A stretch of 20,710 nt of DNA, taken from positions 1 to 20,710 of the IMG/VR virus record IMGVR_UViG_3300020177_000917; one strand, 5' to 3'. Origin of the DNA: a virus. Position 1 is the first letter of the stretch. Each line of letters starts with the position of its first letter. Made by a program: the position numbers and the translations under genes. Positions 1 to 20,710 of the stretch are shown here, piece after piece. Under the pieces are notes generated by a model. The model was given only the letters and a program-made list of their open reading frames with translations. It was not told the DNA's origin and made no database searches.

Positions 1-514
1 CATCTTTAAATGATATACTTAAAATAATTCTATCTTTATTTCCTTTATTTGTAACACCATGAGGCATTGATGTATTAAGACATATGGCCTGTTTTAAATA
101 AACTGTTTCTAAAATTTCTCCTTTAATAAACTTTTTTGCATTAACATTTTGCGTTTTATTTCCCACTGTTATAGTAGGTGTTTCAAATTCATCTTTTTGT
201 TTATAAAAAGAAGTGTAACTATTATCATCAACAATTACAGGTATGTTAATTGCCACATTTCTTTTGTCTGTGTGTGGAGTAACTTCACCATTTGATAACG
301 TTTTAAAAAATTTTATATTTTCAATAATAGATTGATCTTTAAATTGTTTTATTATATTTTTAATAACATCATTATCTAGTGAAACGTATTGAGTATGTAA
401 TGATTTGTCTTTATGTGTTCCATATACAGCCCACCCATTCTGATTATTTTCAAAAACAGATTGAAGTTGTTTTTGATTAAAGGTGAGTTCAGGTATTTCA
501 AAATAATTTTTCAT
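1..514 (-). CDS. Fe(II)/2-oxoglutarate dioxygenase-like protein, 3' end cut by window edge
   Basis: I translated this frame from the minus strand: it starts at the ATG complementary to 512-514 and stays open for 171 codons to the left edge, so the C-terminus is missing. The visible protein has the pattern of a small Fe(II)/2OG oxygenase (double-stranded beta-helix fold): His81-Thr-Asp83 in 'PHTDKRN' as the first two metal ligands, His152 in 'MPHGVTNKG' as the distal ligand, and Arg162 ten residues later as the likely 2-oxoglutarate carboxylate binder. It most resembles prolyl/aspartyl-hydroxylase-like phage oxygenases; the substrate is unknown. The start overlaps the end of the preceding dioxygenase gene by 17 bases, which suggests one transcript and coupled translation. 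No Shine-Dalgarno sequence is seen. The family call is fairly secure; the substrate cannot be inferred. Confidence 0.75.
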   Translation of the reverse strand, partial: MKNYFEIPELTFNQKQLQSVFENNQNGWAVYGTHKDKSLHTQYVSLDNDVIKNIIKQFKDQSIIENIKFFKTLSNGEVTPHTDKRNVAINIPVIVDDNSYTSFYKQKDEFETPTITVGNKTQNVNAKKFIKGEILETVYLKQAICLNTSMPHGVTNKGNKDRIILSISFKD

Positions 515-1313
515 AATCAAAAGCAATTCTATGTAAAACTCTTTTATCCATTTCTTCAAAGTGCCATCTTTTATGAATACTTAACCATTGTTCACTTAAT
601 ACAACATCACCATCATTCCATAAATGATCATATCTAAAACGATCTTCTAAAACAAATTCTTTTAATTCAGACATTAGAGATTCAAATTCTTTTTCTGTTT
701 TTCCTACCATACCAAATATTTGCAAAAATGGAAAATATAATCCAGTTTTACCGCCATCATTTGTATGAACAAGATTAAATGGTACATCAGTATGATGATG
801 TTCTTTGAAAAATTTACTGTGACTGTAACTACCTACTTTATAACCAAGTGTAATTTGAATATCTTTAATTTTTTCTTTTAGAGTATCTGACATATTATTA
901 TATGCTTCAATCATACTTATCCAACTTGTTTTACTTCCTTCAGTACCTTCTTTTGCATATAACCAAATAAGAGGTTTTCTTTGTCTATTACTTGCTTGAT
1001 TAGCGTGCCAGTCTAATGCACTTGTGTGTCCAAATAGACCTTCTTCGCCGTGTTGATTTTTTTTACCTGTAACTCTTAAAACACCATCTCTAACATTAAT
1101 GTGTTTTGCCCGTTCATTGTCTGTGGATTGATAATGGCCTATTTTAGAACAAAAGTTAATCTCGTCATCTGGTGTTAATTTTTGATTTTTAATAACTACG
1201 ACCATATTTGATATGATCATTTTAGCTATTTGATGTGCTTGATTTTCTGTTAATGTTTTTAGATCAATATCTTTGACTTCTACTGCCCAATTATTTAATA
1301 ATTCAAATTTCAT
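498..1313 (-). CDS. TauD/TfdA-like Fe(II)/2-oxoglutarate dioxygenase with an H-x-N metal motif
   Basis: A 271-residue protein starting MKFELLNNWA. The frame stays open to an ATG at 1460, but that longer start would cross the divergent promoter block and overlap the plus-strand gene at 1396, so the ATG at 1313 is chosen. The late-promoter motif on the same strand (1333-1340) lies about 20 bases before it. The TauD-family layout is recognisable: an N-terminal segment with 'VVVIKNQKLTPDDEI' (residues 38-52), a metal site at 'LDWHANQAS' (His103, Asn105), and a C-terminal segment with His247 in 'SIHKRWHF' and Arg258/Arg262 before 'HRIAFDYEKLF'. In the family the first motif is usually H-x-D/E; here the codon clearly reads Asn, which may alter or abolish iron binding. 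It is followed on the same strand by a second oxygenase gene. The substrate is unknown; a modification of a small metabolite, amino acid or glycan is possible. Confidence 0.8.
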   Translation of the reverse strand: MKFELLNNWAVEVKDIDLKTLTENQAHQIAKMIISNMVVVIKNQKLTPDDEINFCSKIGHYQSTDNERAKHINVRDGVLRVTGKKNQHGEEGLFGHTSALDWHANQASNRQRKPLIWLYAKEGTEGSKTSWISMIEAYNNMSDTLKEKIKDIQITLGYKVGSYSHSKFFKEHHHTDVPFNLVHTNDGGKTGLYFPFLQIFGMVGKTEKEFESLMSELKEFVLEDRFRYDHLWNDGDVVLSEQWLSIHKRWHFEEMDKRVLHRIAFDYEKLF

Positions 1314-1332
1314 AATAACATCAATTTTTTTA

Positions 1333-1340
1333 TATTTATA
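1333..1340 (-). promoter_or_regulatory. T4-type late promoter motif (TATAAATA), leftward
   Basis: The plus strand reads TATTTATA, which is TATAAATA on the minus strand, the exact T4 late promoter -10 element. It ends about 20 bases before the dioxygenase ATG at 1313 and lies in an 82-base divergent gap. Assignment rests on motif and position only. Confidence 0.6.
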
Positions 1341-1344
1341 ACAG

Positions 1345-1352
1345 TATAAATA
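1345..1352 (+). promoter_or_regulatory. T4-type late promoter motif (TATAAATA), rightward, first copy
   Basis: Exact TATAAATA in the divergent gap, about 44 bases before the ATG at 1396. It sits five bases from the oppositely oriented copy at 1333-1340, so the two promoters are back to back. Confidence 0.6.
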
Positions 1353-1357
1353 AGTGA

Positions 1358-1365
1358 TATAAATA
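1358..1365 (+). promoter_or_regulatory. T4-type late promoter motif (TATAAATA), rightward, second copy
   Basis: A second exact TATAAATA, 13 bases downstream of the first copy and 30 bases before the ATG at 1396. An AAGGAG ribosome-binding site at 1385-1390 follows. The pair could give two nearby transcription starts. Confidence 0.6.
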
Positions 1366-1395
1366 ATATTAGTATTATAACACAAAGGAGATATT

Positions 1396-1614
1396 ATGTC
1401 AATAACCATAAATGGAAAACAATATGATGAACAAAGTTTGAGTCCTGATTTGAAAAACACAATAATTGCAAGACAGGAAATTTTAAACTCTAAAGCAAGA
1501 CATCAAGTAGAATTAGAAAAAATTGATGTTTTGACAGACTTTTATAACAAAAAGATAGAGAAATTAGTTAAAGAACAAGAACCTAAAGAGATTGTTGAAG
1601 AAAAAGAGGAATAA
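1396..1614 (+). CDS. Small acidic/basic helical phage protein (DUF6447-like)
   Basis: A 72-residue protein. A strong AAGGAG lies five bases before the ATG. The N-terminus 'MSITINGKQYDEQSLSPDLK' looks like a short beta-strand 'I-x-I-x-G-K-x-Y' unit, followed by a long charged helix (residues about 18-60) with heptad-like hydrophobic spacing and a Glu/Lys-rich tail. This resembles the short phage proteins grouped as DUF6447, recalled from memory and not searched. The role is unknown. It is the first gene of the rightward late block and is followed eight bases later by a structural gene without its own ribosome-binding site, so co-translation is likely. Confidence 0.65.
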   Translation: MSITINGKQYDEQSLSPDLKNTIIARQEILNSKARHQVELEKIDVLTDFYNKKIEKLVKEQEPKEIVEEKEE

Positions 1615-6475: not shown

Positions 6476-6483
6476 TATAAATA
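6476..6483 (+). promoter_or_regulatory. T4-type late promoter motif (TATAAATA) for the S74 fibre and propeller genes
   Basis: Exact TATAAATA in an 82-base gap, 46 bases before the fibre ATG at 6529, whose AGAGAGG ribosome-binding site is at 6514-6520. I saw no further motif before 12604, so this promoter may serve the S74 fibre and all three propeller genes. The gap also holds an unused AAAAGGAGT at 6452-6460. Confidence 0.6.
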
Positions 6484-6528: not shown

Positions 6529-8925
6529 ATGCCAACAATATTACAATTAAGAAGAGGTTCCACTGCTGAAAATGATGCCTATACAGGTTCAGTTGGTGAG
6601 ATAACTGTAGATACAACTCTTAGCACCGTAAGATTACATGATGGAAGTACAGCAGGTGGTTCGTTAGTTGGTAATCTACAAAAAAATATTCAATTAGGTA
6701 TAACAGGAGACAATGAAATTGATACGTCTTCAGGAAATCTTACAATAGATTCAGCTGGCGGTACAGTTACTATTGATGATAATTTAAATATTTCAGGAAC
6801 AACAACTGTTTCTGGCCATATATTACCAGATACAGATGTAACTTACGATCTAGGTAGTTCATCATTTAAATTTAGAGATATATATTTAAGTGGTACTTCT
6901 ATTAATTTAGGAGATGCTACTATTACTGCTTCAGGTAGTTCAATTGTTCTTCCATCTGGTTCAACAATTTCAGGTGGTACAGGAAATTTAGCTACAGAAA
7001 ACTATGTTGATACAGCAGTTGCAAATGTAATTGACTCAGCACCAGGTGCTTTAGATACTTTAAACGAATTAGCTGCTGCTTTAGGTGATGATGCTAATTA
7101 TGCTTCAACAACTACAACTGCATTATCTAACAGATTAAGAATTGATACAAATGCTCAAGGATTAACATCTACTCAAAAATCAAATGCGATTACAAATTTA
7201 GGATTATCTACTGTTGCAACAAGTGGTTCTTATACAGATTTATCTAATACAAGTAGTGTTGTAACTTTATCTGGATCTCAAACATTAACAAATAAAACTT
7301 TAGATGACGCTACTTTAACAGGTACTTTAACTGCTGGCGGCGGTGTTGGTACTGCAGGCCAAGTTTTAAAATCTACAGGTACAGGTGTTGAGTGGGGAAC
7401 AGCTGCAGCTGCTGACACTAACACAACTTATACTGTTTCTGCTGTAGATTCAGGTGATGATGCCATTATAAGATTAACAGGATCAGATGCTTCTACAGAT
7501 GACGTAACGTTGGCTGCTGGTTCAAATATTACAATTACTCCATCAGGAGATACAATTACAATTGCTTCAACAGCAAGTGGTAGTGCATTAACAATCCAAG
7601 ATGAAGGATCTACTTTATCTACGGCTGCTACAACTTTAAACTTTGTAGGTTCTGGAGTTACTGCTTCAGGTACAGGTTCAACAAAAACTATTACGATTTC
7701 AGGTGGTGGTGGTGGATCTGCCGATCTTTCTGCTGTTTCTGAAGACATATTACCGTCATTTGACGAAGTTTACGATATTGGTTCTTCAACATACAAATGG
7801 TACGATGGTTTCTTTACAAACAGTATTAATTTAGATACAATTGCTCTTACAAATTCATCTGGTACACTTTCAATTAATTCAGATGTAACAGTAGGTTCAC
7901 TTTTAGTAGATAGTTTATTACTTTCAGAAAACACAATTACTGCTGATGCTTCAACTGCTCTTCAATATCTTGGAGATAAAGGTGTTGTTGAAATCAATAG
8001 TAGTAACTTAGATGTAAGAGAAGGTGATTGGATTGGTGTTCCAGTTGTAGAAACTACAACAACTAATACAATAACCGTTAACGTGTCTGATGGTGATGCA
8101 TTTTCTCAGATATCAGCAAATACTGTAAAATATTACGATGGTACAACAGATTTTGGGGGGCCAGTTGAAGGTAATTATCATTATTTTAACTTCCAAAACT
8201 CGAACGGCGCAAATAATTTTTTAGCACTTTTAAATCAAACTGATATTGGTTCTTTTACCGCTGTTGACTCAAATGGTGATGACACTACAGTTTTTACATT
8301 TAATGGCACTGACGTAGATGCTCAAATATACATTCACTCAAGCGGCAGAACTGTTCAATGGAAAAAATCAAGTGGTACATTTACATCACTTGAACCAAGT
8401 GATGATTCTAACATAGCCAACAGCGCTCTGATTGCTGAATTTACGTCAACCATTAATACAACTACATCATCATCAACCACAACAACTCCACTTACAACAG
8501 GTGCTGAAGGTATTATACGTTACAACAAAGACGAAGGCCGATTTGAAGGTTACAATGCAGAAGGTTGGGCTTCACTTGGTGGTTTAGAAACTAATGAGGC
8601 TGGTGATAATATCATTACAGGAAATTTAGTCGTATCAGGCGACATTACATCTACTTCAGATGAAACACTAAAAGATAACATTAAATCAATCGAAGGTGCG
8701 TTAGATATCGTAACAAAACTTTCTGGTAAAATGTTTACAATGAAATCCGATGAAACTCAAAAAGAAAAAGTTGGTTTTATTGCACAAGAAATTGAACAAC
8801 ATTTACCTCAAGTTGTGTCAACAGACTCTAACGGCATCAAATCCGTATCTTATGGTAATGTGGCTGCGTTATTAGTTGAGGCTATCAAAGAGTTGAACCA
8901 GAAGATAGAAGATTTAAAGAAATAG
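6529..8925 (+). CDS. Long tail fibre with C-terminal peptidase S74 intramolecular chaperone
   Basis: A 798-residue protein. The N-terminal adaptor (MPTILQLRRGSTAENDA, 'GSVGEITVDTTLSTVRLHDG') anchors it to the virion, as in the 2286 and 4910 proteins. Two copies of a shaft unit 'I-L-P-x-x-D-x-x-Y-D-(L/I)-G-S-S-x-x-K' followed by 'S-I-N-L' lie near residues 97-135 and 405-440. At about 654-685 there is a 'G-I-I-R-Y-N-K-D-E-G-R-F-E-G-Y' then 'W-A-S-L-G-G' unit. The last 89 residues are a peptidase S74 chaperone: 'SDETLKDNIKSIEGALDIV' starts at Ser710-Asp711 with Lys715, and 'KVGFIAQEIEQHLPQVV' and 'VSYGNVAALLVEAIKELNQK' follow, ending in a coiled coil. In this family the chaperone trimerises the fibre and cuts itself off at the Ser, so the mature fibre would be about 709 residues. 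Strong fibre call. Confidence 0.88.
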   Translation: MPTILQLRRGSTAENDAYTGSVGEITVDTTLSTVRLHDGSTAGGSLVGNLQKNIQLGITGDNEIDTSSGNLTIDSAGGTVTIDDNLNISGTTTVSGHILPDTDVTYDLGSSSFKFRDIYLSGTSINLGDATITASGSSIVLPSGSTISGGTGNLATENYVDTAVANVIDSAPGALDTLNELAAALGDDANYASTTTTALSNRLRIDTNAQGLTSTQKSNAITNLGLSTVATSGSYTDLSNTSSVVTLSGSQTLTNKTLDDATLTGTLTAGGGVGTAGQVLKSTGTGVEWGTAAAADTNTTYTVSAVDSGDDAIIRLTGSDASTDDVTLAAGSNITITPSGDTITIASTASGSALTIQDEGSTLSTAATTLNFVGSGVTASGTGSTKTITISGGGGGSADLSAVSEDILPSFDEVYDIGSSTYKWYDGFFTNSINLDTIALTNSSGTLSINSDVTVGSLLVDSLLLSENTITADASTALQYLGDKGVVEINSSNLDVREGDWIGVPVVETTTTNTITVNVSDGDAFSQISANTVKYYDGTTDFGGPVEGNYHYFNFQNSNGANNFLALLNQTDIGSFTAVDSNGDDTTVFTFNGTDVDAQIYIHSSGRTVQWKKSSGTFTSLEPSDDSNIANSALIAEFTSTINTTTSSSTTTTPLTTGAEGIIRYNKDEGRFEGYNAEGWASLGGLETNEAGDNIITGNLVVSGDITSTSDETLKDNIKSIEGALDIVTKLSGKMFTMKSDETQKEKVGFIAQEIEQHLPQVVSTDSNGIKSVSYGNVAALLVEAIKELNQKIEDLKK

Positions 8926-8937
8926 GAGGTCAGGTCA

Positions 8938-10146
8938 ATGGCCTTTAAAATATCAACTTACAACAAAAACCATACAACAAAGTACGGTGAACCTTATCTA
9001 TGGGGTTCAGGTGATGTTACAACACTCCCTTCAAACGAAACCAAGATCACGGCTTCAGATGGGGCTGCTGATGATTCCTTTGGCGGGTCAGTTGCTGTAG
9101 GGTGCGGTAGAATAGTGGTAGGGGCTTACCAAGATGACGACAATGGTTCTGCTTCAGGCTCAGCCTACATCTTTGACCTTGATGGAAACCAATTGACCAA
9201 GATCACGGCTTCCGATGGGGTTCTTAATGATTTCTTTGGCGAGTCAGTTGCTATAGGCTCTGGTCGAATAGTGGTAGGGGCTTATGGAGATGACGACAAT
9301 GGTTCTCAATCAGGCTCGGCCTACATCTTTGACCTAGATGGTACTCAATTAGCCAAGATCACGGCTTCCGATGGGGATACACAAGATAGATTTGGCGGGT
9401 CAGTTGCTGTAGGGTGCGGTAGAATAGTGGTAGGTGCTGAACAAAATAGCGACAATGGTTCTTATACAGGCTCAGCCTACATCTTTGACCTAGATGGTAC
9501 TCAATTAGCCAAGATCATGCCTTCCGATGCTGCTGGTGGTAAGTTATTTGGCCGATCAGTTGCTGTAGGTTCAGGTAGAATAGTGGTGGGAGCTTCTGGA
9601 GATAGCACCGCCTATATCTTTGACCTAGATGGTACCCAATTGGCCAAGATCACGGCTTCCGATGGTCCAACTAATAATTTTTTTGGCAATTCAGTTGCTG
9701 TAGGTAACGGTAGAATAGTGGTAGGGGCTGATGATGATGACGACAATGGTTCCAATTCAGGCGCTGCCTACATCTTTGACATAAATGGAACTCAATTAGC
9801 CAAAATCACGGCTTCCGATGGTGCTGATGGTGATAGATTTGGGGAAGCAGTTGCTGTAGGTAACGGTAGAATAGTGGTAGGGGCTTGGGCAGATGACGAC
9901 AATGCTTCTGCTTCAGGCTCAGCTTATGTCTTTGACCTAGATGGAAATCAATTGGCCAAGATCACGGCTTCTGATGGTGATGTTGCTGATCTATTTAGCA
10001 AATCAGCAGTCGCTATAGGTAACGGTAGAATAGTGGTAGGGGCTTACCAAGATGACGTAGGTGCTAACGAAAATCAAGGCTCAGCCTACATCTACGAAAC
10101 ACCAAGAGTTTATACACCATACGATTTAATATACAACGAGGTTTAA
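8938..10146 (+). CDS. Seven-bladed FG-GAP beta-propeller protein 1, probable adhesin
   Basis: A 402-residue protein. After a 35-residue leader (MAFKISTYNKNHTTKYGEPY...) the whole protein is seven FG-GAP_2-type repeats starting at residues 36, 88, 140, 192, 237, 289 and 341. The unit is 52 residues: 'K-I-T-A-S-D-G-x4-F-G-x-S-V-A-V-G-x-G-R-I-V-V-G-A-x-x-D-D-D-N-G-S-x-S-G-S-A-Y-I-F-D-L-D-G'. Seven such units predict one seven-bladed propeller, as in integrin alpha heads. Blade 4 is short (45 residues) and lacks the DDDNG loop; blade 7 has an inserted Ala (F-S-K-S-A-V). No signal peptide, anchor or enzyme domain is seen. A strong AGGAGGT at 8924-8930 sits seven bases before the ATG, 12 bases after the S74 fibre. 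The role as a distal receptor-binding head is inferred from fold and fibre context. Confidence 0.82.
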   Translation: MAFKISTYNKNHTTKYGEPYLWGSGDVTTLPSNETKITASDGAADDSFGGSVAVGCGRIVVGAYQDDDNGSASGSAYIFDLDGNQLTKITASDGVLNDFFGESVAIGSGRIVVGAYGDDDNGSQSGSAYIFDLDGTQLAKITASDGDTQDRFGGSVAVGCGRIVVGAEQNSDNGSYTGSAYIFDLDGTQLAKIMPSDAAGGKLFGRSVAVGSGRIVVGASGDSTAYIFDLDGTQLAKITASDGPTNNFFGNSVAVGNGRIVVGADDDDDNGSNSGAAYIFDINGTQLAKITASDGADGDRFGEAVAVGNGRIVVGAWADDDNASASGSAYVFDLDGNQLAKITASDGDVADLFSKSAVAIGNGRIVVGAYQDDVGANENQGSAYIYETPRVYTPYDLIYNEV

Positions 10147-12571
10147 CACATGGCATTTTATTCAGGATCAAAAACAAATCAAAATTTAGTCTTTGGAGAT
10201 AAAGGTGAGATAAGCAATAGTTCATTTGCTTATAGTGAGGCCGCTACAGTTGCAAGCACAGAAAACAAGATCACACCTTCAGATGGTGCTTCTGCTGATG
10301 AATTTGGCTATTCAGTTGCTGTAGGTTCAGGTAGAATAGTGGTAGGGGCTTATTTAGATGACGACAATGGATCTGCTTCAGGCTCAGCCTACATCTTTGA
10401 CCTTGATGGCACCCAATTAGCCAAGATAACAGCTTCCGATGGTGCTGCTGATGATCGTTTTGGCCGATCAGTTGCTGTAGGTAACGGTAGAATAGTGGTA
10501 GGGGCTAGGGGAGATGCCGACAATGGTTCTGGTTCAGGCTCAGCCTACATCTACGACCTAGATGGAACCAATGAAACCAAGATTACAGCTTCCGATGGTG
10601 CTGCTGATGATACCTTTGGCTCTTCAGTTGCTATAGGTAACGGTAGAATAGTGGTAGGGGCTTCTTCAGATGACGACAATGGTTCCAATTCAGGCTCAGC
10701 CTACATCTTTGACCTAGATGGAACCCAATTGGCCAAGATCACAGCTTCTGATGCTGCTGCTTTTGATTCCTTTGGCCAATCAGTTGCTGTAGGTTCAGGT
10801 AGAATAGTGGTAGGGGCTTACCAAGATGACGACAATGGTAGTGCTTCAGGTTCAGCCTATATCTTTGACCTAGATGGAAATCAACTGGCCAAGATCACGG
10901 CTTCAGATGGAGCTTCTGGTGATTATTTTAGCGATTCAGCAGTTGCTGTGGGTTGTGGTAGAATAGTGGTAGGGGCTTATGGAGATGACGACAATGGTAG
11001 CGATACAGGCGCAGCCTACATCTTTGACCTAGATGGTACCCAATTGGCCAAGATCACACGTTCAGATGCTGCTGCTGAAGATAAATTTGGCTCTTCAGTT
11101 GCTATAGGTAACGGTAGAATAGTGGTGGGGGCTAATAGAGATGCCGACAATGGTTATGGAACAGGCTCGGCCTATATTTTTGATTTAGACGGAAACCAAT
11201 TGGCCAAGATCACTGCTTCAGATGGTGCTGCTCTTGATAACTTTGGCATATCAGTTGCTGTGGGTAACGGTAGAATAGTGGTAGGGGCTTATTTAGATGA
11301 CGACAATGCTTCTTCTTCAGGATCAGCCTACATCTACAACACCAACGAATACTACGACGATTATGTAGAAAAAATTGCTGATAATAGAATTGGCCAATAC
11401 ACAAGATTAACAGGATAAAACTATGGCATTTAAAACAACATATTCACAATACGACAATAAAACAGGCCTATTTTCAACAGAAGGTGCTTTAGATTTAACG
11501 ACAACCCCTTCAAATGAAACTGTAATACAATCCTCAGATGCTGCATATAATGATAGCTTTGGCTCTTCAGTTGCTATAGGTAACAGTAGAATAGTGGTTG
11601 GGGCTGAAGGAGATGACGACAATGGTGATGAATCAGGCTCAGCCTACATCTTTGACCTAGATGGCACTCAATTAGCCAAGATCACCGCTTCAGATGGTGC
11701 TGCTAATGATAGATTTGGCAAATCAGTTGCTGTAGGCTCTGGAAGAATAGTGGTGGGGGCTGTATATGGAAATAACGACATTGGTGCTGTATCAGGCGCA
11801 GCTTACATCTTTAACCTTGATGGTACCCAATTGGCCAAGATCACCGCTTCAGATGGTGCTGCTGATGATCAATTTGGCTGGTCAGTTGCTGTAGGCTCTG
11901 GTAGAATAGTGGTGGGGGCTTATAGAGATGACGACAATAGTACTGATTCAGGCTCAGCCTACATCTTTGACCTTGATGGAACCCAATTAGCCAAAATCAC
12001 ACCTTCAGATGGTGCTGCTAATGATTACTTTGGCCGATCAGTTGCTATAGGTAACGGTAGAATAGTGGTAGGGGCTGAGAGAGATGACGACAATGGTGGT
12101 TCTTCAGGCTCAGCCTACATCTTTGACCTAGATGGCACCCAATTGGCCAAGATAACAGCTTCAGATGGTGCTTCTAGTGATGAATTTGGCCAATCAGTTG
12201 CTGTAGGTAATGGCCGTATAGTGGTAGGGGCTCTTTATGATGACGACAATGGTACTGATTCAGGCTCAGCTTACATTTTTGACCTAGATGGTACCCAATT
12301 GTCCAAGATCACGGCCTCCGATGGTGTTGCTTATGATAGATTTGGCCGATCAGTTGCTGTAGGCTCTGGTAGAATAGTGGTGGGGTCAGATGATGAATCA
12401 GCTTACATCTTTGACCTTGACGGTAACGAATTAAAAAAGATAACACCCACATCAACAAATGGTACTAATTTTGGTAATAAAGTTTTCATAGGAGACGGTA
12501 AAATATTAATATCACGTAGTGGAAATGGTGGTGGTAACGGTGCTGGATATGTCTATATCTATGAAACACCA
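9043..12571 (+). repeat. Tract of 21 FG-GAP blade repeats (about 156 bp each) across three genes
   Basis: The blade unit is 156 bp (52 codons), with lengths of 132-159 bp for the short and inserted variants. It recurs seven times in each of three consecutive genes, interrupted only by leaders, C-terminal tails and short gaps. The framework is conserved even at synonymous positions: 'GGTAGAATAGTGGTAGGGG' recurs nearly unchanged in most units. The codons before F-G, after F-G and after V-V-G-A differ in almost every unit. The tract is locally G+C-rich: 33 of 60 bases at 9061-9120 against 12 of 60 at 14461-14520. Confidence 0.85.
10150..11418 (+). CDS. Seven-bladed FG-GAP beta-propeller protein 2, probable adhesin
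   Basis: A 422-residue paralogue of the upstream gene, starting three bases after its stop and with no clear Shine-Dalgarno sequence, so translation is probably coupled. The leader is different and longer (39 residues, MAFYSGSKTNQNLVFGDKGE...). Blades begin at residues 40, 92, 144, 196, 248, 301 and 353. Blade 2 ends 'DLDGTNET', unlike the usual 'DLDG-(T/N)-QLA'. Blade 5 carries the F-S-x-S-A-V insertion also found in blade 7 of protein 1. The C-terminal 25 residues after the last strand (YYDDYVEKIADNRIGQYTRL...) are unique and charged, and could contact another virion protein. All seven blades keep the acidic loop, so this may be the most calcium-dependent of the three (inference from integrin-type propellers). 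Confidence 0.82.
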   Translation: MAFYSGSKTNQNLVFGDKGEISNSSFAYSEAATVASTENKITPSDGASADEFGYSVAVGSGRIVVGAYLDDDNGSASGSAYIFDLDGTQLAKITASDGAADDRFGRSVAVGNGRIVVGARGDADNGSGSGSAYIYDLDGTNETKITASDGAADDTFGSSVAIGNGRIVVGASSDDDNGSNSGSAYIFDLDGTQLAKITASDAAAFDSFGQSVAVGSGRIVVGAYQDDDNGSASGSAYIFDLDGNQLAKITASDGASGDYFSDSAVAVGCGRIVVGAYGDDDNGSDTGAAYIFDLDGTQLAKITRSDAAAEDKFGSSVAIGNGRIVVGANRDADNGYGTGSAYIFDLDGNQLAKITASDGAALDNFGISVAVGNGRIVVGAYLDDDNASSSGSAYIYNTNEYYDDYVEKIADNRIGQYTRLTG

Positions 12572-12604
12572 AATATAAAAGACATCTTTTCAATTGTTGA
12601 CTAA
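11423..12604 (+). CDS. Seven-bladed FG-GAP beta-propeller protein 3, probable adhesin
   Basis: A 393-residue protein, third of the tandem paralogues, four bases after the previous stop. The 33-residue leader (MAFKTTYSQYDNKTGLFSTE...) ends 'TTTPSNET', close to 'TTLPSNET' in protein 1, so these two share a leader type that protein 2 lacks. Blades start at residues 34, 86, 139, 191, 243, 295 and 339. Blade 1 begins 'VIQSSDAAYNDSFG'. Blade 6 is short and lacks the acidic loop (G-S-D-D-E-S-A-Y). Blade 7 is the most divergent of all 21 (FGNKVFIGDGKILISRSGN...) but still ends 'YVYIYETP', like protein 1. The C-terminus 'NIKDIFSIVD' and the stop codon lie inside a perfect 19-bp tandem duplication. The adhesin role is inferred; an unrelated structural role is possible. 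Confidence 0.82.
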   Translation: MAFKTTYSQYDNKTGLFSTEGALDLTTTPSNETVIQSSDAAYNDSFGSSVAIGNSRIVVGAEGDDDNGDESGSAYIFDLDGTQLAKITASDGAANDRFGKSVAVGSGRIVVGAVYGNNDIGAVSGAAYIFNLDGTQLAKITASDGAADDQFGWSVAVGSGRIVVGAYRDDDNSTDSGSAYIFDLDGTQLAKITPSDGAANDYFGRSVAIGNGRIVVGAERDDDNGGSSGSAYIFDLDGTQLAKITASDGASSDEFGQSVAVGNGRIVVGALYDDDNGTDSGSAYIFDLDGTQLSKITASDGVAYDRFGRSVAVGSGRIVVGSDDESAYIFDLDGNELKKITPTSTNGTNFGNKVFIGDGKILISRSGNGGGNGAGYVYIYETPNIKDIFSIVD

Positions 12605-12623
12605 CTTTTCAATTGTTGACTAA
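12586..12623 (+). repeat. Perfect 19-bp tandem duplication spanning a stop codon
   Basis: CTTTTCAATTGTTGACTAA occurs at 12586-12604 and again, immediately adjacent, at 12605-12623. The first copy encodes the last residues and TAA stop of propeller protein 3; the second is untranslated. It lies at the boundary between the G+C-rich propeller tract and the AT-rich glycan cassette. Confidence 0.9.
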
Positions 12624-12635
12624 ATAGTATGATAT

Positions 12636-14168
12636 ATGATACCAAATATATTATGGCAAACTTGGAAAACTAAAACTTTACCAACTTTACTTAAAAAACA
12701 ATCAGAGTCTTGGAACTATAGTAATCCTCAACTTAAAAAAGAGTTTATGGATGATCAGCAATGTTCTGATTTTATTTTAAATCATTTTGGCCAAGACGTT
12801 CATTTAAAATATCATCAACTTCCTCAACCGATTAATCGTGCTGATTTTTGGAGATTAGCTGTTGTTTATATACATGGTGGTTATTATTCAGATTTAGATA
12901 TCACTTGTAAAATGAATTTAAATTATTTTATCAAATCAGGTGTGGATGCTGTTTTTATACGAGAAATTAATAACATAGGTAATTATTTTTTTGGTGCCGT
13001 ACCTAAACATCCTGTTATCAAAATGGCCATTGATCGTATGTTATCAGAAACAGGTAATATTAATAAAAAAGAATCACAATCGTGGGGAATGCACGGCCTA
13101 CACCAATCTGTACGAGATTATTATAAAGTCATAGGCACAAATTATATTCCTAATGATGAAGTTGATTTTATATTAGATAGTAAAGTCAGACAAGATAAAT
13201 ATATTATACATACTATGGCTAGTTTAGATGATCAAAAAGATTATGAATCATGGAGAAAAAGAGAAAAGTTAATGATAGAAGAAAGACAACAATCAAACGA
13301 TATTTTATTTTTTACAACATTTAATAAAAATGGTTATGACCTTTATGGTAAAACATGGGTAGATAGTTTTACTAAAGTTGCTAATTATTATAATAAATTT
13401 AGAGCAAAAATATACTACGAAGGTTTTACTCCAAAACAAAATCATTCTAATATACAATGGGTTGATTTTAAAAAAGAAATACCTCAGCATGAACAATGGA
13501 AAAAAGAATACTTAGAAAAAAACAAGCACACTGATTATGTAAAAACAATGTGTGTTCGTTTTAGTCATAAAGGATTTGTTATACAAGACGTATTAGACAA
13601 ACATAACAATAATTATCTTATATGGTTGGATGGTGATTGTGTATATCAAAATGAGAATTTTACGGAATTTCCTAAAAACATTTTACAAGACAAATTTATG
13701 GCTTGTCAATTAGAACACGCACAGGACTTAAATCATGTGGAAAGTGGTATATTAATATTTGATGGCAATCACCCTAATACAAAGATATTTAATAAACACT
13801 TTAAAGAAAATTATAAAATAGATAATGTTATAAAAATGAGTGAACCTTATGATGGTTTTATTGTTTCAAAATCTCTTATTACATCTAAATTAGATTATTT
13901 TAATTTAAATGAGAATTTTGGTAAAGGTGGTATTCAATCTGATCCATCTTTAACATTTTTACATCCAGAAATTAAAAAAAGATTTGTGCATAATATAGGT
14001 TGGACAGGTAAAAATCAATATAAAGGATTTGAATTAATTAAAAGCAGAGATGACATTTTAACTAAACTTGAAAACACACTTTTTGGCAATAAAAAAGAAA
14101 AACAAGAAAAACGAAAAAGACTTTTTAATAAACTTGAAAAATTAAGACGATTAAAATCAAAAAGTTAA
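12636..14168 (+). CDS. Two-domain glycosyltransferase (GT32/DXD-sugar type plus second GT-like domain)
   Basis: A 510-residue protein. The first half is a GT32-type 'DXD sugar-binding' transferase: 'IPNILWQTWKTKTLP' at residues 2-16, 'NRADFWRLAVVYIHGGYYSD' at 68-87, then Asp86-Leu-Asp88 (D-L-D-I-T) as the metal/nucleotide-sugar site, and 'H-P-V-I-K-M-A-I' at 125-132. From about residue 222 a second domain begins, 'NDILFFTTFNKNGYDLYGKT'. It contains 'YLIWLDGDCVYQN' with Asp332-Gly-Asp334, again the acidic signature of a GT-A metal site, and ends in a Lys/Arg/Glu-rich coil (485-510). One protein may therefore add two sugars in sequence; sugars and acceptor are unknown. No Shine-Dalgarno sequence is seen. 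It opens the cassette that follows the propeller genes. Confidence 0.75.
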   Translation: MIPNILWQTWKTKTLPTLLKKQSESWNYSNPQLKKEFMDDQQCSDFILNHFGQDVHLKYHQLPQPINRADFWRLAVVYIHGGYYSDLDITCKMNLNYFIKSGVDAVFIREINNIGNYFFGAVPKHPVIKMAIDRMLSETGNINKKESQSWGMHGLHQSVRDYYKVIGTNYIPNDEVDFILDSKVRQDKYIIHTMASLDDQKDYESWRKREKLMIEERQQSNDILFFTTFNKNGYDLYGKTWVDSFTKVANYYNKFRAKIYYEGFTPKQNHSNIQWVDFKKEIPQHEQWKKEYLEKNKHTDYVKTMCVRFSHKGFVIQDVLDKHNNNYLIWLDGDCVYQNENFTEFPKNILQDKFMACQLEHAQDLNHVESGILIFDGNHPNTKIFNKHFKENYKIDNVIKMSEPYDGFIVSKSLITSKLDYFNLNENFGKGGIQSDPSLTFLHPEIKKRFVHNIGWTGKNQYKGFELIKSRDDILTKLENTLFGNKKEKQEKRKRLFNKLEKLRRLKSKS

Positions 14169-14185
14169 AGGAAAAATTAAGAGAA

Positions 14186-15001
14186 ATGAAAGATATATAT
14201 AATAACATTTCCTTTGCAATAGCTACTAATGGTAAGCGATACGATTTAACAAAAAAAACAATCAAATCTATTCAAAATGTAACAAATTATAAATGCGATA
14301 TCCATATAGGAGGAAATATTTCAAAATTTTCATTTTTAAAAGACGAGAACATTTTTTTGCATAATTTTAAAGAGGAAGCTAATAATGGATTTGTGGGTAA
14401 ATTAAGAAATAAAATAATCGAAAAATGTAATACTGAAATAGTGGTTTATTGTGATGATGATGTTTTGATGCCAAAAAATTGGTTAAATAAGTTTTTAGAA
14501 TACAATAATAATAATGATTGGAATTTTTTAACTAATAAAATTTTATTACCAAATGGTGGCAGGTATTGGGATAGGTCAATTATTAACGATACTATACATA
14601 CAATGGTTGATTATGAACACGATAAATATGATAAAAGATTATATTTTTGTTCTACATTTTTTGTTACTAAGCGAGATTTTTTTAAAAAATTTAAATTTGA
14701 TGAAACCTTAAAGTATTATGGAGGAGTAAAAAATAAAAACTTAGATTTAAAAAACTGGAAATCAGCTGAAGACCATGAATTAAGTTATAGAATATATCAA
14801 CAAGGATATTGTATAGATTTTGATTATAATAATTGTGTTTTTCATATTAATAATGAATTTACACAGGTTATCAGAAAAAGAAGTTTATCAAAAAACGTAT
14901 GTGTTAAAAATATTTTTTTAAATGGTGAAGAACCAGACTCTATTTTTGTTAAAGATAGAAGTGTAATCGAAATGTTAAGAAACGAGTTTAAAAATTTATG
15001 A
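14186..15001 (+). CDS. GT2-like (GT-A fold) glycosyltransferase
   Basis: A 271-residue protein. The start 'ISFAIATNGKRYDLTKKTIK' is the usual first strand and helix of a GT-A fold. 'LRNKIIEKCNTEIVVYCDDD' brings Asp90-Asp91-Asp92, the metal-binding acidic cluster, followed by 'VLMPKNWL'. Later, 'SAEDHELSYRIYQQGY' (Glu195-Asp196-His197) matches the E-D-x-E-L catalytic-base region of GT2 enzymes. There is no membrane helix, so it is cytosolic or peripheral. The upstream gap is 17 bases with AAAGGA after the previous stop. The downstream methyltransferase starts inside its stop (ATGA), which implies coupled translation and probably work on the same glycan. Donor and acceptor are unknown. Base composition is very AT-rich, like the rest of the cassette. 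Confidence 0.78.
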   Translation: MKDIYNNISFAIATNGKRYDLTKKTIKSIQNVTNYKCDIHIGGNISKFSFLKDENIFLHNFKEEANNGFVGKLRNKIIEKCNTEIVVYCDDDVLMPKNWLNKFLEYNNNNDWNFLTNKILLPNGGRYWDRSIINDTIHTMVDYEHDKYDKRLYFCSTFFVTKRDFFKKFKFDETLKYYGGVKNKNLDLKNWKSAEDHELSYRIYQQGYCIDFDYNNCVFHINNEFTQVIRKRSLSKNVCVKNIFLNGEEPDSIFVKDRSVIEMLRNEFKNL

Positions 15002-15645
15002 AATATAAATTTATAGACATTGGATGTGGTTGTAATTCAGTATCGTCTGATGATCATTTTTTTGGCACAAAAGTAAAAGGTTTACTTGTTGAACCAATAG
15101 AAGAATATTGTAAGATACTACCTCAATCAGATACAGTGCTTGTTGAATGTGCGGCTGTTGGTGAATATGATGGATTTAAAGATTTAAATACAGTTATTGA
15201 GGGTGATATTATAGAATATATACCTTATAAACTTTACTCAAATCAAAGTAAAATGTCTAGGTATATGAAAAATCATGGTATTCAGCATTGTGGCACATCT
15301 TCATTATGTGATCCAGATTTAATAGTTCATAAAAACACTACTGAACCAAGATTAGTTAAGTTAATTACACTTAATACATTAATTAAAAAATATAAAATAA
15401 CGGAAGTTGACCAAATAAAAATAGATGTGGAGGGATATGAAGCGATTGTTTTATCTCAACTAATAGAACTTATGGATTCTGAAAAATTGAAAGTAAATGA
15501 AAGAATTATATTTGAATATGTAAAAGAATTTGGAAATAATGAAGAATTAGATAGGCTAAAAGATGAGATATGTTCTAAGTTTGGATTTAGTGCCTCTCAT
15601 ATTATTTCTAATTGGGATTCTGATATAGTAATGGTAAAACAATGA
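14998..15645 (+). CDS. FkbM-family SAM-dependent methyltransferase
   Basis: A 215-residue protein. 'KYKFIDIGCGCNSVSSDDHF' (residues 2-21) is the glycine-rich SAM-binding loop, 'LLVEPIEEY' (about 29-37) is the acidic strand-2 motif, and 'VECAAVGEYDG' is the FkbM-type post-strand segment. The family hallmark 'DQIKIDVEGYEAIVLSQL' lies near residues 138-155. Members O-methylate sugars or small molecules, and in glycan clusters they cap or mark sugars; that role here is inferred from the glycosyltransferases on both sides. The ATG overlaps the previous stop and the TGA overlaps the next ATG, so it is the middle of a coupled set. A remnant with the same N-terminus occurs at 16435-16509. Confidence 0.85.
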   Translation: MKYKFIDIGCGCNSVSSDDHFFGTKVKGLLVEPIEEYCKILPQSDTVLVECAAVGEYDGFKDLNTVIEGDIIEYIPYKLYSNQSKMSRYMKNHGIQHCGTSSLCDPDLIVHKNTTEPRLVKLITLNTLIKKYKITEVDQIKIDVEGYEAIVLSQLIELMDSEKLKVNERIIFEYVKEFGNNEELDRLKDEICSKFGFSASHIISNWDSDIVMVKQ

Positions 15646-16430
15646 AACCCTCATTAAATTTATATATGTTCACTAATCTCACTAATATTATAAGAGAAAA
15701 ACAAACAATATTTGAAACATTTAATTCATTTAGAAATACTTTTAGTGAATATTCTGATATTAGGCCAACTTGTGTTTATATTGACAGGTATCCTTTAAAT
15801 GACAATAAAGTGTTAAAGGAATATACATCAAAAATAAAAGAATATATAAACCCTTATAATATAAAAATAATGAATAGTTACTATGATGCGTTTGTAGATG
15901 CTGTTGAGAGTTCAAATTCTATGTTTAATTTTATGTTAGAACATGACTTCATTTTTTTTAAAGATAGAATTCAACACAATTTACATACCTGTATGAAACA
16001 AATGATATATGATAATATACATCACTTACGATTTAATGTACAATCTAATTTTAAAAATTTTGATCAACGAATAGAAAAATATAATTGTTACCAAGAAGTT
16101 AAAGGTAAGTTTTTAAATTACTGTACTACTAAAAATCCATCTAATCAACCAAATTTAATTAGGCTTGATATATATAGAAAAGATATGCTTCCTATATTAA
16201 AAAAATATTCTGGTAAAAAAATTAATACATGGGGTACAGAAGACCATTATTATTATAGTGATATGAGTCATACAGTATTGGCTGTATATGGTGATAAAAA
16301 TTGTTTGGAAACTATTGGACATACTGAAGGACGATTTCTTAATGTAGAACTAAAAGATAAAGTAAATGGGTTTGAGGATAGTTTTTACATGACTGAAGAA
16401 TATTTTAATTATTTAAAAACTAAAAATTAA
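15642..16430 (+). CDS. Probable GT-A-like glycosyltransferase, family uncertain
   Basis: A 262-residue protein. I do not recognise the family with certainty. Features are a beta-strand start 'LNLYMFTNLTNIIREKQTIF', then 'P-T-C-V-Y-I-D-R-Y-P-L', then 'MFNFMLEHDFIFFKDRI' (about residues 94-110), where Glu-His-Asp after a hydrophobic strand occupies the place of a GT-A metal motif. 'NQPNLIRLDIYRKDMLP' and 'INTWGTEDHYYYSDM' (acidic Glu-Asp-His) look like the acceptor/catalytic half. It has Tyr/Asn-rich AT-driven composition and no membrane segment. The ATGA overlap with the upstream methyltransferase and the position among sugar genes support a sugar-transfer role, which remains inference. It could instead be another nucleotide-sugar-binding enzyme. 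Confidence 0.55.
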   Translation: MKPSLNLYMFTNLTNIIREKQTIFETFNSFRNTFSEYSDIRPTCVYIDRYPLNDNKVLKEYTSKIKEYINPYNIKIMNSYYDAFVDAVESSNSMFNFMLEHDFIFFKDRIQHNLHTCMKQMIYDNIHHLRFNVQSNFKNFDQRIEKYNCYQEVKGKFLNYCTTKNPSNQPNLIRLDIYRKDMLPILKKYSGKKINTWGTEDHYYYSDMSHTVLAVYGDKNCLETIGHTEGRFLNVELKDKVNGFEDSFYMTEEYFNYLKTKN

Positions 16431-18786: not shown

Positions 18787-19599
18787 ATGGCAGAACCAGC
18801 TACAAGAGAATCACTAAAACAATATGCTTTAAGAGCATTAGGTAAGCCAGTCATTGAAATTAACGTAGATGACGACCAATTAGAAGACAGAATAGATGAA
18901 GCAGTACAGTTTTTTCAACAATATCACTACGATGGTATTAAAAGAACATATTTAAAGTACAAGTTAACTGCTGCTGATAAAACAAGACTTTCGGCTACTA
19001 ATCCTTCAAGTGAAACAGCAACTCAAAGTTCTGTATCTACAACTTGGTATGAAGATAATAATTATCTTGTAGTGCCTTCAAGTATTATTTCTGTAATTAA
19101 TATTTTTCCTTTTTCGGATAAAGGTAATCTAAACCTATTTGATGTAAGATATCAATTAAGATTAAATGACTTGTATGATTTTTCTTCAACGTCTGTAATC
19201 AATTATGATATTGTATTAAGACACTTAGACTTTTTAGATCACATATTAGTAGGTGAAAAACCATTAAGATTTAATCAACACGAAAATAGATTATACATTG
19301 ATATGGATTGGACAAACGATTTGCAAACAGATGAATGGTTAGTTATAGAAGCATATCGTAAACTTGATCCCGCAACATATACAGATGTATGGAATGATAT
19401 CTATTTAAAGAGATATACAACACAATTATTTAAAAAACAATGGGGTGCTAATCTATCTAAGTTTAATGGAGTTACAATGGTTGGTGGTGTAACTTTAAAT
19501 GGTCAACAAATTTACAGCGAAGCACAAGCAGATTTAGATAAACTAGAAAAAGAAATTAGAGAATCATACGAATTGAATCCAACTTTTATGATAGGATAA
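18787..19599 (+). CDS. 13: Neck protein gp13 homologue (T4-like)
   Basis: A 270-residue protein. The opening 'ATRESLKQYALRALGKPVIE' and 'INVDDDQLEDRIDEAVQFFQ' followed by 'QYHYDGIKRTYLKYKLT' is characteristic of gp13 head-completion/neck proteins of T4-like phages, where the acidic 'D-x-Q-x-E-D-R-I-D-E-A' helix is strongly conserved. T4 gp13 is about 309 residues, so this is slightly short, as in marine relatives (recalled). gp13 and gp14 close the filled capsid and provide the tail-docking platform, so it is a virion part made late. Later segments, 'NYDIVLRHLDFLDHILVGEK' and 'EKEIRESYELNPTFMIG', give a helical core and C-terminus. It has its own late promoter and AAAGGA, and gp14 starts four bases after its stop. 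Confidence 0.85.
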   Translation: MAEPATRESLKQYALRALGKPVIEINVDDDQLEDRIDEAVQFFQQYHYDGIKRTYLKYKLTAADKTRLSATNPSSETATQSSVSTTWYEDNNYLVVPSSIISVINIFPFSDKGNLNLFDVRYQLRLNDLYDFSSTSVINYDIVLRHLDFLDHILVGEKPLRFNQHENRLYIDMDWTNDLQTDEWLVIEAYRKLDPATYTDVWNDIYLKRYTTQLFKKQWGANLSKFNGVTMVGGVTLNGQQIYSEAQADLDKLEKEIRESYELNPTFMIG

Positions 19600-19603
19600 T
19601 GAT

Positions 19604-20710
19604 ATGCCAGTTAATCATTACTTTCAAGGTGGCAACGGCATTGGTGATCAAAACGAAAAAAGATTATACGAAGATTTAATTGTTGAAGGCCTAAAGATAT
19701 ATGGCCACGATGTTTATTACCTGCCACGTACACTAGTCAATAGAGATTTAATACTAGGAGAAGATACTACTTCTAGGTTTGATGACTCTTGGTTAATTGA
19801 AATGTATATTGAAACGTCTGAAGGATTTGCAGGTTCACAAGAATTAATATCTAAATTTGGATTAGAGATTAGAGAAGACACTACATTTATGGTGTCTAAA
19901 AGAAGTTGGGAATATCAAGTAGGTCAAAAAGCAAGCTTAATTGCTTCTGGAAGACCAAACGAAGGTGATATTATTTTTTATCCATTAATGAATTCCTTTT
20001 TTGAAATTCAATTTGTTGAAGATCAGGAACCTTTCTTTGCATTAGGACAATTACCAGTTTACAAATTAAGAGTAACACGTTGGGAATACAGTTCAGAACA
20101 ATTAAATACAGGCAATTCTCAAATTGATGATAATGAAACTGCTTATTCACTAGACAGATTAGCATATCAATCTGCTTTAGAAAATGGAACATTTGGTGCT
20201 GTTTTAGGAAATCCAGTTGTAACAGGAGATCAAGTTACCTCGATACCGGTTATATCAGGTGGAGAGGGATATATTACAGCCCCAACCATTACTATATCTA
20301 GTCCTTCTGCTACAATAAATGCTGTAGCATCAGCAAATGTAACTGGAAATACATTAACCTCATTTAATATTGATAATATAGGTCGTGGATATAGTTCAGT
20401 TCCTATTTTAACATTAACTTATGTGTCAACAGATACTTCAACTAAAACAGATGAAACAGCGGTTATAACGTTAACAGATGGACAAGTAACTGCAATTTCT
20501 GTGCCAACAATTAATGATATTTTGTCTGTAACAAGTGTATCTATATCCAGTCCTGGTGGTGCTGTTACTGCAGCTGCTCAGGCGATTTTAACAAACGGAG
20601 TTATTGAAAGAATTGGTATTACGGTAGACGGCTCAAGTTATTTAGGATTGTCACCTACAGTTACTATATCAGAAAACACAGATGCTACAGGATCATTATT
20701 ATTAGAAAAT
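19604..20710 (+). CDS. 14: Neck protein gp14 homologue with beta-repeat extension, 3' end cut by window edge
   Basis: An open frame of 369 codons runs in phase from the ATG at 19604 to the right edge without a stop. Residues 1-180 are a recognisable T4-like gp14: 'RLYEDLIVEGLKIYGHDVYY' and 'LPRTLVNRDLILGEDTTSRF', then 'ISKFGLEIREDTTFMVSKRS', 'RPNEGDIIFYPL', 'FEIQFVED' and 'WEYSSEQLNTGNSQID'. gp14 is the second neck protein that, with gp13, prepares the head for tail attachment. T4 gp14 is about 256 residues; this one already exceeds that. From about residue 203 it enters a beta-rich repeat region with 'I-S-G-G-E-G-Y-I-T-A-P-T-I-T-I' and 'N-I-G-R-G-Y-S-S-V-P-I-L-T-L', a fold-like unit not expected in a canonical gp14. 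Whether the core resumes afterwards cannot be seen. Confidence 0.85.
   Translation, partial: MPVNHYFQGGNGIGDQNEKRLYEDLIVEGLKIYGHDVYYLPRTLVNRDLILGEDTTSRFDDSWLIEMYIETSEGFAGSQELISKFGLEIREDTTFMVSKRSWEYQVGQKASLIASGRPNEGDIIFYPLMNSFFEIQFVEDQEPFFALGQLPVYKLRVTRWEYSSEQLNTGNSQIDDNETAYSLDRLAYQSALENGTFGAVLGNPVVTGDQVTSIPVISGGEGYITAPTITISSPSATINAVASANVTGNTLTSFNIDNIGRGYSSVPILTLTYVSTDTSTKTDETAVITLTDGQVTAISVPTINDILSVTSVSISSPGGAVTAAAQAILTNGVIERIGITVDGSSYLGLSPTVTISENTDATGSLLLEN

Follow-up and report, generated by a model that had tools for sequence, protein, structure and literature searches.

The window, a 20,710-nucleotide stretch of a Pelagibacter-phage-like genome, carries three tandem genes encoding FG-GAP propellers (alpha, beta and gamma), which constitute a recurrent matched set of three classes with class-specific termini that is new here. 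The 20–21 blades of one genome evolve in concert, and about ten positions of each blade are hypervariable. With moderate confidence, we interpret the proteins as virion receptor-binding heads which are diversified by blade-to-blade recombination and diversifying selection. The sequence-only reading of this DNA missed what is most informative here, namely the division into three classes, the homogenisation of the blades and the hypervariability of one face.

The propeller genes and their locus

The genes of the trio (Table 1) are separated by gaps of 3 and 4 bases, and the end of the S74 fibre gene is located 12 bases upstream of the first of them. Pfam identified 7, 7, and 6 stretches of FG-GAP_2 (PF14312) in alpha, beta, and gamma, with E-values of 3e-105, 6e-121, and 7e-101 and scores of 345, 395, and 331 bits, respectively, as compared to a curated cut-off of 23. 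The blades have a period of 52 residues and are preceded by leaders of 35, 39, and 34 residues, respectively. Blade 4 of alpha has a shortened loop, and the seventh blade of gamma (KITPTSTNGTNFGNKVFIGDGKILIS...) is divergent and falls below the thresholds of Pfam and of the blade HMM; the earlier description of three tandem stand-alone propeller genes is upheld, except that "exactly seven repeats" does not apply to gamma at the Pfam threshold. The proteins had also been described as devoid of any enzyme or anchor domain. Pfam indeed found no recognisable domain besides the propeller, but the lack of an anchor needs qualifying, because conserved leaders and tails, specific to each class, are present and may serve for docking. 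With NCBIfam, all matches scored far below the cut-off except one to Por_Secre_tail, which covers repeat stretches and was considered spurious. As a check of the assembly, three further contigs of IMG/VR, whose IMG sample identifiers differ, were found to carry the trio without a single base change.

Table 1. Features of the propeller trio and its surroundings in the window
Feature	Position	Strand	Remarks
T4-type late promoter word TATAAATA	6476..6483	+	Upstream of the S74 fibre gene; last such word before the trio
S74-ended fibre protein	6529..8925	+	N-terminal Mtd_N (PF18454, E 3e-9); C-terminal intramolecular chaperone S74 (PF13884, E 9e-14)
Propeller gene alpha (gene 1)	8938..10146	+	402 aa; seven FG-GAP_2 blades; class by leader and tail
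Alpha leader MAFKISTYNKNHTTKYGEPYLWGSGDVTTLPSNET	8938..9042	+	Class-specific motif G-x-P-[YF]-[ML]-[WY]..GD..T.PSNE
Propeller gene beta (gene 2)	10150..11418	+	422 aa; seven blades; Pfam and predicted structure
Beta C-terminal tail	11344..11415	+	Predicted helix H402-420, low confidence (pLDDT <50)
Propeller gene gamma (gene 3)	11423..12604	+	393 aa; blades 1–6 canonical, blade 7 divergent; assigned by gene order, tail and termini tree, the gamma leader being weakly conserved
Divergent seventh blade of gamma	12434..12565	+	No Pfam or blade HMM match; strands present in the model
Glycosyltransferase/FkbM methyltransferase genes	12636..16430	+	Directly downstream of the trio; PF04488, PF00535, PF05050
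Neck proteins gp13 and gp14	18787..20710	+	gp14 cut by the window end

Late promoter words TATAAATA are located just upstream of the genes at 1396, 2049, 5856, 6529 (S74 fibre), 17220, and 18787 (gp13), while none occurs between 6476 and 17181. Since the word occurs only slightly more often in the window than expected (8 vs 5.0), the argument rests on its positions, which support the earlier proposal of one late operon; the trio apparently belongs to the late transcript of the S74 fibre. Downstream of the trio, an ORF at 15642 had no Pfam match. From the neck proteins gp13 and gp14 nearby, the trio can be assigned to the host recognition cluster of pelagimyophages, which has been defined between VrlC and gp14 (PMC7029224). 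The locus resembles that cluster in its genome position (up to gp14) and in containing fibre and glycosyltransferase genes; the consulted part of its description differs in reporting no propeller trio or repeat homogenisation, and "FG-GAP" has zero occurrences in the text of PMC7029224.

Recurrence of the three classes

Six further marine phage loci outside the lineage of the window encode three stand-alone propellers of the three classes, in the order alpha-beta-gamma or beta-gamma-alpha, and a tree of the termini required 2 class changes, which is the minimum, vs 11.4 in shuffles. The sequence-only reading had proposed to look for the trio next to gp13/gp14 in marine phage contigs, and it is present in the fibre or gp13/gp14 locus of other marine phages. 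All seven trio loci tested (the window, L016, L019, L023, L029, L031, and L043) contain an S74 fibre gene. The gp13 protein of one trio phage is only 41% identical to that of the window. Some near relatives lack the trio, namely contigs in which the fibre gene is directly beside gp13 and the isolates Mosig and HTVC008M, whose whole records gave no FG-GAP match, indicating that it is dispensable for this type of phage.

A gene of about 200 residues (PHROG 2618/1604) is located between the trio genes in L019, L023, and L029; it had no Pfam match and two weak phage matches, named hypothetical. Kinship of the propeller leaders with fibre N-termini is not claimed, since the leader HMMs convincingly find only propellers (best fibre match, E 0.11). 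A host or bacterial origin of the trio was likewise discarded, as a scan of genome contigs gave two loci only: a 37816-bp record that agrees in length and match with a viral contig of IMG/VR and is thus viral sequence within a MAG, and a weak match of 31%.

Predicted fold

The structural models of beta and gamma (mean pLDDT 83.3 and 83.2, pTM 0.84 and 0.85, respectively) each contain 28 ring strands, corresponding in gamma to seven four-stranded blades despite the divergent blade 7. A PDB comparison of the beta model gave integrin alpha heads as the top matches. Both proteins are thus predicted to be closed seven-bladed propellers, as the sequence-only reading had proposed, with ring closure deduced from strand order and fold match. 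The integrin alpha FG-GAP propeller, the closest solved fold, shares the seven blades and the FG and GA motifs at 16–19% identity. Propellers of the integrin type are defined by a calcium loop DxDxDG between strands 1 and 2 and a conserved proline of the Cage/GAP motif (PMC3192720). The blades of the trio differ in both respects: they lack the calcium loop, having an A-B turn of about 2 residues (G-S/N/C-G) while a DDDNG sequence sits in the B-C loop, and the position of the proline (column 29) is hypervariable, being occupied by P in 18 of 157 blades.

Concerted evolution of the blades

Four-fold sites differ at frequencies of 0.08–0.28 among the blades of one gene and 0.09–0.30 between the genes of one genome. 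Between genomes the value is 0.573, or 0.568 for blades of the same class and position, and 0.56–0.68 is expected from the codon usage of each locus. In the blade tree, repeats cluster according to genome rather than orthologue: one group holds all 21 blades of L019, another the 21 of L023, and a third the complete 40 of the window and L016, and there is no class signal within genomes (69 changes vs 71.0 in shuffles). The 20–21 blades of a genome evolve in concert, and recombination is probably the homogenising process. Blade pairs sharing many variable residues occur in excess in L019, L023, and L029, and in L029 one 10-residue variable string is identical in three blades of two genes; linkage of blade variants was not significant in the window or L016. 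Between L023 and L028, two near-identical contigs, one blade codon is changed from TGT to GTG, and the GTG version is present in 12 other blades; this conversion-like difference could be an assembly error among repeats. Within the trio, the four near-identical contigs of the window group are invariant, and the population of the window thus gave no example of diversification in progress. Shuffling of intact blades between the window and L016 was rejected: the best non-orthologous match comprised 7 of 10 variable residues, and non-orthologous blades agree no better than background at the variable positions.

A hypervariable face

Columns 9, 10, 12, 15, 29, 30, 33, 35, 37, and 38 of the 52 are hypervariable, and all of them are located inside or bordering the D-A and B-C loops, i.e., on one face, with faces assigned from strand order rather than from coordinates. 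In every genome, 65–86% of blade comparisons show amino-acid differences at these columns. Codon positions 1 and 2 of the hypervariable columns differ 2.0–6.0 times as often as scaffold four-fold sites in eight genomes. Comparing the window with its nearest relative L016, orthologous blades match at 24% and non-orthologous blades at 21% of variable positions, vs 85% for the scaffold, while the genes neighbouring the trio are 87–98% identical; the variable positions have been fully turned over between the two. At columns 12, 15, and 29, the residues Y, W, F, R, and H account for 55–58%, as compared to 14% in the background. Together with the confinement of the hypervariability to one face, this composition suggests a binding surface. 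Of the "exchangeable receptor-binding heads" postulated earlier, the exchange is backed by concerted evolution, blade-variant linkage and the one conversion-like difference, whereas binding is deduced from the variable face and its aromatic and arginine-rich make-up.

Proposed function and alternative explanations

Under the explanation we favour, alpha, beta, and gamma would be three paralogous virion adhesins, made late together with the S74 fibre. Each would be a closed seven-bladed propeller whose top face, formed by the D-A and B-C loops of every blade, binds the receptor, while the class-specific leader and tail may dock it to its own place on fibre or baseplate, or to its two partners. 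Recombination would overwrite blades with copies of other blades, both inside each of the three genes and from one gene to another, resulting in near-identical DNA across 20–21 blades, and selection would keep altering about ten top-face positions per blade. The outcome would be three heads presenting up to 21 non-identical blade faces, a set whose turnover outpaces that of the remaining genome and needs no reverse transcriptase. Virion location, docking, receptor binding and ligand are inferred; the location is suggested by gene context, by the annotation of the nearest isolate homologue (from cyanophage S-TIM5) as virion structural, a label we read as annotation, and by the occurrence of FG-GAP_2 between laminin-G domains in a protein of a virion-structural family. 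A further step, which we put forward tentatively as possible, is that the three co-evolved propellers form one heteromeric adhesin, with the 21 blades serving as a shared gene-conversion pool that would keep reshuffling top-face variants and pass new ones among the heads, free of reverse transcriptase.

The best of the alternatives, unlikely in our view, is that carbohydrate-binding propellers decorate the head or tail tube and keep the virion near cells or particles but do not determine host range, and that the variable face tracks glycan variety, not a host receptor. Related phages possess a giant structural protein in which FG-GAP_2 propellers adjoin laminin-G domains, a different protein encoded in the locus matches a PHROG of head decoration, and polysaccharide-modifying genes adjoin the trio, but in the loci examined the trio accompanies S74 fibres, lies in the fibre/neck locus and is not linked to capsid genes. 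Somewhat less probable again are soluble non-virion proteins, intracellular or released at lysis, acting as receptor-masking decoys or as binders that block competing phages. The trio proteins stand alone with the propeller as their sole recognisable domain, near relatives live without them, and the adjoining glycosyltransferases are thought to alter the host surface against co-infection (PMC7029224). Leaders that do not resemble signal peptides, the late transcript shared with the fibre and the virion-structural annotation of the nearest isolate homologue argue against such a role, and the match to a defence family is limited to a marginal fragment; a defence system was also rejected as PADLOC gave nothing meaningful.

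Ordinary recent tandem duplication, in which the similarity of the blades reflects their young age and the loops simply lack constraint, is improbable. Highly repetitive propellers arise via blade amplification, and the blades of one gene are alike at the DNA level; however, the three classes with their own termini are common to distant phages and so are older than the blade similarity, and unconstrained loops would neither exceed four-fold sites at codon positions 1 and 2 nor show the enrichment in Y, W, F, R, and H at three columns. Targeted hypermutation by a diversity-generating retroelement or a similar system, which could explain that codons of variable columns change at all three positions on a fixed scaffold and that the adjoining fibre contains an Mtd_N domain, is the least probable, since no reverse transcriptase (RVT_1) was found in eight contig records (including ones of 151, 132, and 95 kb, though contigs may be incomplete), variable codons end mostly in T or A with spectra that, judged from codons only, do not look adenine-templated, and variation extends across 20–21 blades rather than one variable region.

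Related systems and implications

The receptor-binding protein of Staphylococcus phage phi11 reportedly contains a five-bladed beta-propeller, from which the trio differs in propeller family and blade number. F417_gp054 of cyanophage S-TIM5 (H6WG31) is a stand-alone FG-GAP_2 propeller, 51% identical and of the same predicted fold; however, it is a single copy beside metabolic and hypothetical genes, with no trio and no class-specific leaders seen. Targets of diversity-generating retroelements (Mtd of Bordetella phage; tentaclins, PMC10743442) resemble the trio as rapidly varied phage binding proteins, whereas the trio was found without a reverse transcriptase and varies over repeat blades. The WD40 propellers of HET-D and HET-E (NWD family) of Podospora anserina likewise have homogenised repeats, exchanged within and between paralogues, and a conserved scaffold, their hypervariable codons lying exclusively in the d-a and b-c loops on the top face (PMC1805685). 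These belong to an unrelated family, with four variable columns, and are encoded by fungal incompatibility genes fused to NACHT, whereas the phage set consists of three stand-alone seven-bladed paralogues in a fibre locus with about ten variable columns; Pfam detected FG-GAP_2 only and no NACHT in the trio.

Large marine phages must somehow follow receptor change in hosts that are very abundant and grow slowly, an open problem for which retroelements are the answer usually given. The trio provides a propeller family diversified by nature, whose variable positions can be told directly from the scaffold. If the favoured explanation is true, repeat conversion on a fixed scaffold of seven blades would offer these phages an alternative to retroelements, convergent with the allorecognition propellers of fungi.

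Three tandem propeller genes with a predicted integrin-like fold

Directly behind an S74-ended fibre gene, the window encodes three stand-alone FG-GAP_2 proteins of classes alpha, beta and gamma (ORFs 1, 2 and 3; see table), the gaps from the fibre gene through the three ORFs being 12, 3 and 4 bases. Pfam recognized 7, 7 and 6 FG-GAP_2 stretches in ORFs 1, 2 and 3, respectively (E < 1e-100); the last blade of ORF 3 is divergent, yet its strands are present in the predicted model. AlphaFold2 models, built for beta and gamma from 21-sequence alignments, comprise 28 ring strands (mean pLDDT 83, pTM 0.84-0.85). Judging from strand order, blade 7 seems to be completed, and the ring thereby closed, by the last strand of the leader. 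The top matches of the beta model in the PDB were integrin alpha heads (E 8.5e-18); the best viral match was a protein of cyanophage S-TIM5 (51% identity). Two hallmarks of integrin-type propellers, a calcium loop joining strands 1 and 2 and a conserved proline, are not seen here; the trio therefore shares the fold of these proteins but not their family.

Coordinates of the propeller genes and of neighboring or related features
Feature	Locus	Position	Strand	Remark
Aspartyl/asparaginyl hydroxylase-like and TauD-like dioxygenase genes	window	2-1460	-	upstream of fibre genes
S74-ended fibre gene	window	6529-8925	same as trio	just 5' of trio; 798 aa
Propeller ORF 1 (alpha)	window	8938-10146	same as S74 fibre	402 aa
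Propeller ORF 2 (beta)	window	10150-11418	same as S74 fibre	422 aa
Propeller ORF 3 (gamma)	window	11423-12604	same as S74 fibre	393 aa
Perfect 19-base tandem duplication	window	12586-12623		CTTTTCAATTGTTGACTAA twice
FkbM-type methyltransferase gene	window	14998-15645		Pfam match
S74 fibre gene	L016	7064-8764		566 aa
FkbM-type methyltransferase genes	L016	14799-15485; 18869-19543		two genes
PHROG 2618/1604 gene	L019	12373-12963		~200 codons
PHROG 2618/1604 gene	L023	9281-9901		~200 codons
PHROG 2618/1604 gene	L029	8108-8707		~200 codons
Large propeller protein	L043	2-3493		1163 residues
Four tandem propeller genes	L180	5419-10289		stand-alone, seven-bladed

Recurrence of sets of three

Scans of IMG/VR, whose metagenome contigs are redundant, returned 43 and 70 loci, many of them overlapping or near-duplicate. 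Stand-alone propellers occur in threes in the window, its near relative L016, and loci L019, L023, L029, L031, L041 and L043; counting the window and L016 as one, and with L023 and L041 mutually related, these represent about six or seven independent lineages. The blade number of complete propellers is almost always exactly seven, and PF14312 counts are 20-23 per trio record and 28 in L043, where a large protein holds a fourth, more divergent FG-GAP_2 propeller beside BNR/sortilin-like repeats. In L180, which belongs to a different phage lineage, the termini of the four propellers alternate between two types (1 like 3, 2 like 4).

Class alpha is marked by the leader G-x-P-[YF]-[ML]-[WY]..GD..T.PSNE and the tail TP.V.T[PL]YD, class beta by a leader often containing HESF or HK[ST]F and a tail with aromatic and acidic residues, and class gamma by the tail TP....LD[IQ]LD; the gamma leader of the window is weakly conserved. 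The termini tree can be explained by the minimum of two class changes (11.4 in shuffles), a figure that is partly circular because the termini themselves had served for the initial, by-eye assignment of classes. Not circular is the presence of one alpha, one beta and one gamma in each complete genome. An S74 fibre is present at the locus in the window and in 6/6 other trio genomes tested. Neck genes of the gp13/gp14 type lie close to the propellers in L023, L041, L042 and L047, and 7-12 kb off in L014, L016 and the window. No member of the neck family was detected in the records of L019, L029, L031 and L043, which may be incomplete or more distantly related. Between the propeller genes of three loci lies a PHROG 2618/1604 gene, perhaps an assembly chaperone, which is absent from the window.

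Concerted evolution of the blades

At four-fold degenerate sites of scaffold residues, blades of one gene differ by 0.08-0.28 and blades of different genes in the same genome by 0.09-0.30, as compared to 0.573 between genomes and 0.568 for the same class and blade position. The codon usage of the surrounding genes predicts 0.56-0.68; codon bias therefore does not explain the likeness of the blades. In a tree of 144 blades, based on scaffold DNA, single groups were formed by L019 (21/21, support 91), L023 (21/21, support 99), and the window with L016 (40/40, support 99), and no class signal was detected within genomes (69 changes, 71.0 when shuffled). The three genes therefore predate the similarity among their blades.

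A hypervariable face

Entropy exceeds 2.3 bits in 10 of the 52 blade columns (9, 10, 12, 15, 29, 30, 33, 35, 37 and 38). All ten fall inside the D-A and B-C loops or one to two residues outside them. These loops occupy a common face in propellers; the face assignment follows the strand order of the two modelled chains, not coordinates. On the opposite face, the turns vary less, with a mean entropy of 1.0-1.3 vs 1.5 and 2.6. The variable columns differ in 65-86% of comparisons, with the same pattern in every genome, and tyrosine, tryptophan, phenylalanine, arginine and histidine make up 55-58% of columns 12, 15 and 29 vs 14% of the other proteins of the loci. At codon positions 1 and 2, the variable columns differ at 2.0-6.0 times the rate of scaffold four-fold sites in eight genomes, an excess in the direction of diversifying selection, as judged by ratio rather than by a formal site test.

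Between the window and L016, variable positions match in 24% of cases in orthologous and 21% in non-orthologous blades, as compared to 85% for the scaffold; the neighboring genes compared are 87-98% identical. Within the time separating the two genomes, the variable face has been wholly turned over.

Proposed exchange between blades

L019 and L029 contain an excess of blade pairs with at least six variable residues in common, and L023 an excess of pairs with at least five; no such excess of shared variable residues was seen in the window or L016. One whole ten-residue variable string recurs in beta blade 4, alpha blade 1 and alpha blade 4 of L029. L023 and L028 differ at only a few places over 12.4 kb, among them a blade codon changed from TGT to GTG, i.e., at three adjacent bases, GTG being present at 12 other places in L023. 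Such a change is what one would expect of a conversion tract, but short-read assembly of repeats could imitate it.

The Podospora WD40 propellers HET-D and HET-E swap repeats within and between paralogues, and the selected codons sit in the top-face d-a and b-c loops (PMC1805685). The trio blades show the same pattern and may likewise be exchanged within and between paralogues; diversification by a retroelement is disfavoured. Because the two families are unrelated, the trio would work like HET-D/HET-E by convergence, not as a member.

Genomic context, acquisition and putative role

The gp13 of the window shares 80% identity with its counterpart in Pelagibacter phage Mosig and is followed by gp14. 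These genes therefore place the window inside the pelagimyophage host recognition cluster, which is located between VrlC and gp14 and includes fibres and glycosyltransferases (PMC7029224).

Words matching the T4 late promoter word, TATAAATA, precede the genes at 1396, 2049, 5856, 6529, 17220 and 18787. Since there is none between 6476 and 17181, the simplest reading is that the trio is co-transcribed late with the S74 fibre.

The GC content of the trio is 0.43-0.47 vs 0.23-0.36 in nearby DNA, and its GC3 is 0.28-0.34 vs 0.14 in the other genes of the window. In trio genomes outside the lineage of the window, the GC3 of the trio is similar to, or somewhat lower than, that of its surroundings. 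From this contrast, we infer that the lineage of the window acquired the propeller cassette. In the near relatives L072-L076, the same fibre gene directly adjoins gp13 and the propellers are absent; the whole records of the isolates Mosig and HTVC008M gave no FG-GAP match.

The S74 fibres of the window and L016 share a 289-residue stretch with 99% identity and differ in length, which is a mosaic exchange of fibres beside the trio. The 19-base duplication spans the stop codon of gamma. The gene after it begins 31 bases downstream in the window and 12 bases downstream in L016, which would fit a duplication confined to the lineage of the window. The FkbM-type methyltransferases of these near relatives are strongly divergent (30-34% identity). 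Mosig carries hydroxylase/dioxygenase annotations similar to those of the window, but oriented as its fibres.

A literature search, with most subscription papers outside its reach, found no other published description of these propeller proteins. The simplest role for them would be that of virion heads which bind a receptor or surface glycan, consistent with the annotation of the S-TIM5 homologue as 'virion structural protein', with a virion-structural PHROG family in which propeller domains are flanked by laminin-G domains, and with the fibre-gene context of the trio.
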